This document shows, one piece after another, positions 45,696 through 46,306 of a stretch of 64,000 bases of DNA. The stretch covers positions 124,001 through 188,000 of the forward strand of contig NZ_FOCX01000005.1 in the NCBI RefSeq assembly GCF_900110215.1, given 5' to 3'. Both the position numbers and the translations under genes were made by a program. Below the pieces are notes generated by a model that was not told the origin of the DNA, made no database searches, and saw only the letters and a list, made by a program, of their open reading frames with translations. The stretch is from Halorientalis persicus. Lineage in GTDB: Archaea; Halobacteriota; Halobacteria; Halobacteriales; Haloarculaceae. Every line of letters starts with the position of its first letter. Position 1 is the first letter of the stretch.

Positions 45696-45780
45696 GCGTG
45701 GGTAGCCAAGCCAGGCCAACGGCGCAGCGTTGAGGGCGCTGTCCCGTAGGGGTCCGCCGGTTCAAATCCGGTCCCACGCA
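45696..45780 (+). tRNA. tRNA-Leu (GAG)
   Basis: 85-base type II tRNA. The acceptor GCGTGGG pairs perfectly with CCCACGC (discriminator A, no encoded CCA). The anticodon stem CAGCG/CGCTG encloses TTGAGGG, giving anticodon GAG. The long variable arm TCCCGTAGGGGTCC and T arm GCCGG-TTCAAAT-CCGGT are canonical. No intron. It decodes CUC/CUU leucine codons. Confidence 0.93.
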
Positions 45781-45883
45781 CTCAACTGCGGGCGTTGCCC
45801 GCGACCAGAGTGCGGGTGCACTCCCCTTGGGACTGCATCCACGCATCATTCCTTTCGGAACAAATCGGTGAGCGACAGCGACG
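45757..45883. repeat. 127-base repeat, copy 1 (tRNA-Leu 3' end plus three hairpins)
   Basis: Starts inside the tRNA T arm and ends at GACAGCGACG. The second copy is at 46180-46306; I count three mismatches. Downstream of the tRNA the copy holds three small stem-loops: GCGGGC-gtt-GCCCGC (45788-45802), AGTGC-gggt-GCACT (45809-45822) and TTCC-tttc-GGAA (45849-45860). Confidence 0.9.
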
Positions 45884-45904
45884 TACCATTCGTGAGTGTC
45901 CGAA

Positions 45905-45955
45905 CCAGGCCAACGGCCCATCGTTGCGGGCGCTGTCCCGTAGGGGTCCGCCGGT
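45905..45955 (+). pseudogene. tRNA-Leu internal fragment
   Basis: CCAGGCCAACGGC ... GGTCCGCCGGT matches tRNA bases 45711-45761 with three differences. The anticodon loop now reads TTGCGGG and the stem no longer pairs. The 5' part and the T loop are missing, so it cannot be a tRNA. Confidence 0.85.
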
Positions 45956-45963
45956 GAGCGGTG

Positions 45964-45988
45964 CGAGGTCGAACACAGTGAGACCTCG
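45964..45988. repeat. hairpin with loop GAACACAGTGA
   Basis: CGAGGTC-GAACACAGTGA-GACCTCG, perfect seven-base stem. First of three hairpins in this locus sharing the 11-base loop consensus GAACRMAGTGA. Confidence 0.8.
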
Positions 45989-45996
45989 GTACGCGA

Positions 45997-46017
45997 GCGG
46001 GGAACGAAGTGACCCGC
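45997..46017. repeat. hairpin with loop GAACGAAGTGA
   Basis: GCGGG-GAACGAAGTGA-CCCGC, perfect five-base stem. A degenerate relative (AGCGAACGAAGTGAGCG) occurs near 46096-46112. Confidence 0.8.
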
Positions 46018-46071
46018 GAGCATCGGTTTGCCGACCGCGAACGCCGTGACGAGCGAAGCGACGTGACGGAA

Positions 46072-46093
46072 GTTCAAATTTCGGTCCCGCGCA
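46072..46093 (+). pseudogene. tRNA T-arm/acceptor fragment
   Basis: GTTCAAATTTCGGTCCCGCGCA resembles the tRNA-Leu 3' end (TTCAAATCCGGTCCCACGCA) with several changes. It is a decayed copy of the same 3' end. Confidence 0.6.
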
Positions 46094-46124
46094 TGAGCGA
46101 ACGAAGTGAGCGAAGGGCAAGACC

Positions 46125-46134
46125 GATTTGAACC
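46125..46134 (-). repeat. inverted T-loop fragment
   Basis: GATTTGAACC is the exact reverse complement of GGTTCAAATC in the tRNA T arm, so one fragment in the array lies in the opposite orientation. Confidence 0.5.
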
Positions 46135-46147
46135 CTGGAAGTCGCAG

Positions 46148-46168
46148 CGGCCGAACGCAGTGAGGCCG
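46148..46168. repeat. hairpin with loop GAACGCAGTGA
   Basis: CGGCC-GAACGCAGTGA-GGCCG, perfect five-base stem; third clear member of the hairpin family in this locus. Confidence 0.8.
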
Positions 46169-46179
46169 ACCGTCTTCCA

Positions 46180-46306
46180 CCGGTTCAAATCCAGTCCCAC
46201 GCACTCAACTGCGGGTGTTGCCCGCGACGAGAGTGCGGGTGCACTCCCCTTGGGACTGCATCCACGCATCATTCCTTTCGGAACAAATCGGTGAGCGACA
46301 GCGACG
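46180..46306. repeat. 127-base repeat, copy 2
   Basis: Second copy of the tRNA-Leu 3' end plus three-hairpin unit, 423 bases after the first. One of the three differences changes hairpin 1 from GCGGGC to GCGGGT, which keeps a G:U pair, so the stem survives. Confidence 0.9.

Follow-up and report, generated by a model that had tools for sequence, protein, structure and literature searches.

The 3′ ends of tRNA genes are classic attachment (att) sites for archaeal integrases, and the question raised by this locus is whether the tRNA fragments that follow the tRNA-Leu(GAG) gene of Halorientalis persicus are the debris of such an integration. The window analyzed, that is the whole 64,000 nt stretch of DNA, contains the following features, where D denotes a segment corresponding to the tRNA from the T-loop to the 3′ end:

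45696–45781, plus strand: intact tRNA-Leu(GAG), the anchor of the array (ARAGORN; Rfam RF00005, 44 bits)
45760–45780, plus strand: first D segment, within tRNA-Leu(GAG) (boundaries set on 142 D copies)
45782–45883, plus strand: first trailer copy of tRNA-Leu(GAG), which includes GTGCGGGTGCACTCCCCTTGGGACTGCATCCACGCA (repeat and ortholog comparison)
45880–45955, plus strand: 5′ part of a pseudo-tRNA-Leu (83% over 76 nt), broken off in the T-arm past CCGCCGGT
45956–46071, plus strand: hairpin-rich 116 bp insert separating the T-arm halves of the pseudo-tRNA
46072–46180, plus strand: inserted unit, beginning with a tRNA-Leu(TAG)-type 3′ end and running to the next T-arm
46072–46094, plus strand: decayed tRNA 3′ end, a D copy of the TAG type (GTTCAAATTTCGGTCCCGCGCA; CCCGCGCA)
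46120–46204, plus strand: hairpin B, consisting of an inverted T-arm (GACCGATTTGAACC), an inner hairpin (CTGGAAG...CTTCCACC) and the next D
46125–46134: inverted T-loop
46176–46306, plus strand: second copy of the 131 bp block of D and trailer
46182–46204, plus strand: distal D copy, GAG type, with one mismatch

An earlier note on this DNA described an intact tRNA gene followed by a 127-base duplication with three differences. ARAGORN and Rfam both call the tRNA at the position given, and the tRNA itself is the only Rfam match in the locus (E up to 1). The duplication was found at the reported offset of 423 nt; its actual length is 131 nt (45753–45883 and 46176–46306), with 4 substitutions, and it comprises the T-arm, the acceptor strand and about 102 bp of trailer. 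At up to 4 mismatches, the 23 nt tail occurs only at these two places in the 64 kb (both strands). A close homologue of the trailer stretch GTGCGGGTGCACTCCCCTTGGGACTGCATCCACGCA (45808–45844) is present behind tRNA-Leu(GAG) in related genera. This stretch ends like a tRNA acceptor, and may represent either a unit fixed long ago or a 3′ element with a function. Between the two copies, the internal 51-base tRNA fragment was as described, with 48/51 bases matching the tRNA (45905–45955), and can be extended to 76 nt at 83% identity. The same pseudo-tRNA is found in two of the genomes compared, G058 and G086, which also carry close counterparts of the terminal part of the 116 bp insert (GTGACGAGCGAAGCGACGTGACGGAA), while the inserted unit at 46072–46180 is missing from both. 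The decayed 3′ end at the start of that unit is indeed present, but is of the tRNA-Leu(TAG) type; together with the sequence behind it, it is 85% identical to the tRNA-Leu(TAG) locus that the window genome carries at C40:41233–41356. The inverted T-loop fragment was likewise recovered, and lies in hairpin B, the 76 nt core of which folds as single-stranded DNA at −19.9 kcal/mol (z −4.6).

The gene upstream of the tRNA (45031–45639) encodes an HVO_2718-like transcription regulator (Pfam PF24250), and the pairing of this gene with tRNA-Leu(GAG) is conserved in many relatives. On the minus strand, positions 45652–46341 and 45782–46204 hold long, probably spurious ORFs that arise from T-arm copies (e.g., GTGFEPVEDG..). 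Since T-arm copies yield both spurious ORFs and false attachment sites, such arrays can confuse annotation.

The locus had been interpreted as a possible relic at this tRNA. It is not a one-off, and belongs to a family of hairpin units of about 100–160 bp that is spread across the haloarchaea and found behind tRNAs of 18 isotypes. Prevalence was assessed by a motif-free test, which looks downstream of each tRNA for a second copy of its final ~21 bases. In four Halorientalis species, 86/177 chromosomal tRNA genes are followed by 1–5 units (142 units in all, median 119 bp). The chromosome of the window genome has 1–3 downstream copies at 20/46 tRNAs, and the three further species of the genus have units at 24/42, 24/48 and 18/41 tRNAs; the tRNA sets of the four genomes are complete or almost so, while the ARAGORN labels of intron-bearing tRNAs are unreliable. 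On the window genome's chromosome, units lie downstream of the tRNA and on the same strand only, and no upstream D copies were detected at any of the 46 tRNAs. Units were also present at 16 of 30 sampled tRNAs of G110, a genome without any motif match, and at 10 of 28 tRNAs of G006, which belongs to another family (one of the ten being a tandem tRNA-Asp gene pair). Overall, about a third to a half of the sampled haloarchaeal tRNA genes carry units, compared with 0/14 tRNAs in a small sample from four non-haloarchaeal genomes of the phylum.

Motif searches gave a similar distribution. The hairpin part was found again behind tRNA-Ala, -Gly, -Arg and -Leu of the window genome, and the left arm (TTTGAACCCTGGAAG) has exact matches in 79/392 haloarchaeal genomes (reversed control, 0), with a same-strand tRNA no more than 500 bp upstream of 97 of the 107 matches (14 isotypes); two of the remaining matches are true tRNA-Thr genes read backwards. 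The right arm occurs in 90/392 of these genomes (control, 0). In a phylum-wide sample, 18 haloarchaeal genomes held a variant of the pattern, which was absent from the roughly 240 others. Matches in a collection of 84,980 species were haloarchaeal in almost every case, the few bacterial matches being close to the chance expectation for such a pattern.

The units share a common order, namely D, a spacer that often includes a hairpin (hairpin A), an inverted copy (I), an inner hairpin (b) and the next D. D is a copy of the local tRNA from the start of the T-loop to the 3′ end, and I is an inverted T-arm, often with part of the acceptor. Among the 142 D copies of the four genomes, D starts at T-loop base G53/T54 (in the unit layout, the next D runs from G52/G53) and ends at exactly the last tRNA base. 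Identity per base is 0.89–0.98 inside D, and just past it 0.54, 0.56, 0.42 and 0.38 for all 142 copies, or 0.44, 0.46, 0.30 and 0.26 for 108 copies picked for unrelated following sequence. An att relic should show an identity block that begins at the crossover and stops where the tRNA ends, and in the 142 copies this 3′ boundary is sharp. Reverse transcription of mature tRNA was rejected as a source, since CCA follows only 4/142 D copies, as is the case for the genes (3/177). In a second set of 215 loci (148 with units), 226 units were mostly 100–160 bp long (range 44–423 bp) with an average copy identity of 95.5%; this set is no measure of prevalence, because many of its loci were picked for holding the motif. 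An inverted T-loop (≤1 mismatch) lies inside 160/220 distinct units, compared with about 4 expected.

Fold prediction pairs the inverted T-arm copy with the next D, with the inner hairpin between them, and six such folds (one of them weak, z −2.3) have an architecture like that of an integron attC site, with paired outer arms, an internal loop, inner arms and a variable tip. A permutation test for pairing in the inner stem of hairpin B was weakly positive (5.69 vs. 5.36 bp). In the I/D arms, A.C mismatches (172) are about as common as G.T (142), which suggests that pairing is at the level of DNA rather than RNA. By inspection, the core of the unit is the T-loop sequence GTTCRAAT, GTTRRRY/RYYYAAC core boxes are absent, and the ends of the inserted part, where a MITE would carry terminal inverted repeats, are not conserved. 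Short inner variants (TGGAAGACGAGCG..CTTCC) were considered as archaeal bulge-helix-bulge introns and rejected, as by inspection they have no bulges. Hairpin tips (L012, L256 and others) are mostly GCGAAGC, ACGAAGT or similar with flanking GA/GA, and resemble d(GCGAAGC), a very stable DNA mini-hairpin; tips like GCGAAGC also occur elsewhere in the genome (L006).

The earlier note had called for a comparison of the tRNA-Leu(GAG) locus in related genomes, and the orthologs do differ rather than showing one identical array throughout. Units are missing from G110 and G230, two exact ones are present in G168, an older duplication is common to the window genome (G000), G058 and G086, and the extra TAG-type unit was seen, among the orthologs compared, in the window genome only. 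The tRNA-Cys gene provides another pair of empty and filled orthologous sites. Across 203 ortholog comparisons, 72 were empty in both genomes and unit number differed in 101 of the other 131. Recognizably shared units were few (55/356), which can partly reflect fast divergence, and the differences in number are more robust. Non-shared units were proximal to the tRNA in 20 cases and distal in 17, so there is no insertion polarity; a polarity toward the tRNA was apparent for Lys and Val, and is unsupported overall. The proposal of repeated integration at the tRNA 3′ end, or serial duplication, is partly supported: orthologous loci vary, and the copied block runs from the T-loop to the exact 3′ end, as it does at tRNA attachment sites. 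The picture of a graveyard left by a single element at one tRNA does not hold.

We tentatively favor, at something near an even chance, a reading in which tiny non-coding cassettes that attach at the T-loop-to-3′-end segment were moved in trans by a hypothetical recombinase and later underwent duplication, deletion and refinement through template switching. Insertion in trans, site-specific for the T-loop, is favored because D begins in the T-loop and stops sharply at the tRNA 3′ terminus, the window holds a unit of foreign type, and hairpin cores are shared. Inner hairpin families are common to different isotypes and genera, and within one genome the cores behind tRNA-Arg(CCT) and tRNA-Lys(TTT) are identical over 39 bases reaching the T-arm. 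The cassette reading is also supported by tRNA-Cys and tRNA-Leu(GAG), where orthologous sites can be empty or filled, by the differing unit numbers of orthologs, and by the foreign (TAG) tRNA end of the window unit. Recombination at the T-loop would insert a cassette at the tRNA gene and leave D on both sides, with the I-b-D foldback serving as the folded attachment site, comparable in principle with an integron attC or the CTX-phage site, and the putative recombinase acting in trans. Recombination between D copies would then duplicate or delete units, while template switching at replication would preserve both the pairing of the hairpin arms with each other and their match to the local tRNA. 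In the window, an older duplication of D and trailer with the pseudo-tRNA may have been followed by entry of a younger Leu(TAG)-type unit into the T-arm of the distal copy. Transfer of a cassette from one isotype to another would introduce an acceptor strand that does not belong there, but D fits the local tRNA in almost every case, and therefore conversion, template switching or target duplication is also needed. Several points weigh against cassettes: exact tandem repeats show that plain duplication occurs too, insertion polarity is lacking, and no virus, phage or plasmid copy was found in IMG/VR, INPHARED or PLSDB; in addition, fast divergence, in place of gain and loss, could account for much of what differs in sequence between species, and in the Leu(TAG)-to-Leu(GAG) case two similar genes could simply have recombined. 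A bolder form of the reading, which we consider possible though doubtful, is that the units represent a new class of minimal mobile DNA, in which gene-free cassettes of ~120 bp form integron-like arrays behind many haloarchaeal tRNA genes, dock at the T-loop-to-3′-end segment as a universal site, and adopt attachment hairpins as single-stranded DNA.

A purely mutational origin appears rather unlikely. It would require no dedicated enzyme and no function, only slippage, unequal recombination between D repeats and template switching (quasipalindrome correction) at tRNA 3′ ends, on the premise that these are hot spots of replication stalling. Such an origin fits the exact tandem units (119 and 272 bp), the stretches of identical units in a row, and the absence of insertion polarity. 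Template switching can create and repair hairpin arms (PMC8794818), and would explain covariation and the local matching of I without selection. This hairpin-making power, together with the exact tandem units, keeps the mutational explanation alive. Against it, the duplicated block stops exactly at the tRNA 3′ end and the bodies beyond are mostly unrelated, inner hairpin families recur across several isotypes and genera, and units were absent from the small sample of 14 tRNAs outside the haloarchaea. Slippage at a single locus alone was rejected, since 18 isotypes and several families show the pattern.

It is improbable that the hairpins are terminators, processing signals or small RNAs, with the arrays held by selection. 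Hairpins can terminate transcription in Haloferax volcanii (PMC7237163), and the strong covariation of hairpin A speaks for an RNA role: in an 18-sequence subset, 7/9 pairs are changed on both sides and 0/500 shuffles reach the observed scores. The mean stem of hairpin A in 145 units is 3.65 bp, compared with 0.91 bp for permuted halves, the observed value being somewhat inflated because the longest-stem register was taken for each unit. However, about half of the tRNAs have no units, although the sister-species ortholog is often filled, and the hairpin-A motif lies behind 27/86 array tRNAs and only 2/91 others. An RNA role is less favored since orthologous tRNAs often go without units and hairpin A is no general tRNA trailer; nor are G.U-type pairs in excess in the I/D arms, and Rfam matches the tRNA only. 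Hairpin A as a generic tRNA terminator was rejected, as it is mostly missing at unit-less tRNAs.

That the units are leftovers of ordinary viruses, plasmids or genomic islands integrated at tRNA genes is also improbable, for although a T-loop-to-3′-end identity block is what classical tRNA attachment sites leave, and apparent true element ends occur at some of the same tRNAs, unit sizes cluster at 100–160 bp, too short for an integrase, no integrase or cargo lies between copies, and the gene-free hairpin architecture is conserved. A viral att site was also rejected, with no unit found in IMG/VR, INPHARED or PLSDB; in IMG/VR the right arm was absent, and 28 left-arm 15-mers were present there without the unit. 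The apparent ends of integrated elements (L024, L071 and L078) are at tRNA-Phe, tRNA-Leu(TAG) and a tRNA ending in CCTGCAACGCCCA. These apparent elements lie between the tRNA and the hairpin unit, displacing the array, and their ends carry differing tRNA lengths and other tRNA parts than the units do.

The nearest relatives of the units are tRNA attachment sites, integron attC arrays and the short repeats of Haloquadratum, each of which shares part of the anatomy. Attachment sites at tRNA genes are used by archaeal and bacterial integrative elements, including the SNJ2, pNOB8 and SSV types (reviewed in PMC8371274). As with the units, these elements produce a direct repeat up to the tRNA 3′ end, restore the tRNA and insert downstream of it, whereas the units have no integrase or cargo, are ~120 bp, tandem and built of foldback hairpins, and occur at roughly half of the sampled tRNA genes. 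Integron attC arrays and CALINs consist of tandem units with an imperfect hairpin that has conserved outer arms, an internal loop and a variable tip. The units have all of these features, but their outer arms are T-arm sequence instead of GTTRRRY boxes, they contain no genes, and they are anchored to tRNAs. The short, transposase-free repeats of Haloquadratum (MITE, PATE and SMR; PMC3119063) are also short, non-coding, palindromic haloarchaeal elements, and are mobilized in trans or by unknown means. They are dispersed and target other elements or short motifs, whereas the units are located behind tRNAs, the ends of which they copy. REP/BIME palindromes are short and tandem, and CRISPRs are repeat-spacer arrays. 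The units resemble these as short tandem palindromes with a repeat-spacer look and a ~21 nt repeat, but here the repeat differs at every tRNA and the spacers are hairpins, not unique captured DNA. A literature search, with subscription journals mostly outside its coverage, found no published description of tRNA-anchored hairpin arrays.

If the units are mobile, they make up a family of elements without genes, and nature has supplied an assay for a putative archaeal recombinase; if not, they document with unusual clarity how slippage and template switching act at tRNA genes. In both cases, the arrays are relevant to the question of why insertions concentrate at tRNA 3′ ends.

Two further loci are of note. 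At L053 (G269:C21), a hairpin unit with the T-arm signature abuts the end of a CRISPR array, and no tRNA was found nearby. The small contig C22 of the window genome's assembly carries a tRNA-rich cluster without arrays, showing scattered imperfect matches among its own genes only. This dense cluster (G000:C22:16970–21014; L205, L208 and L271) is like the tRNA clusters of viruses and plasmids, and similar clusters are present in G058 (C1:2240734–2244715) and G168 (C4).
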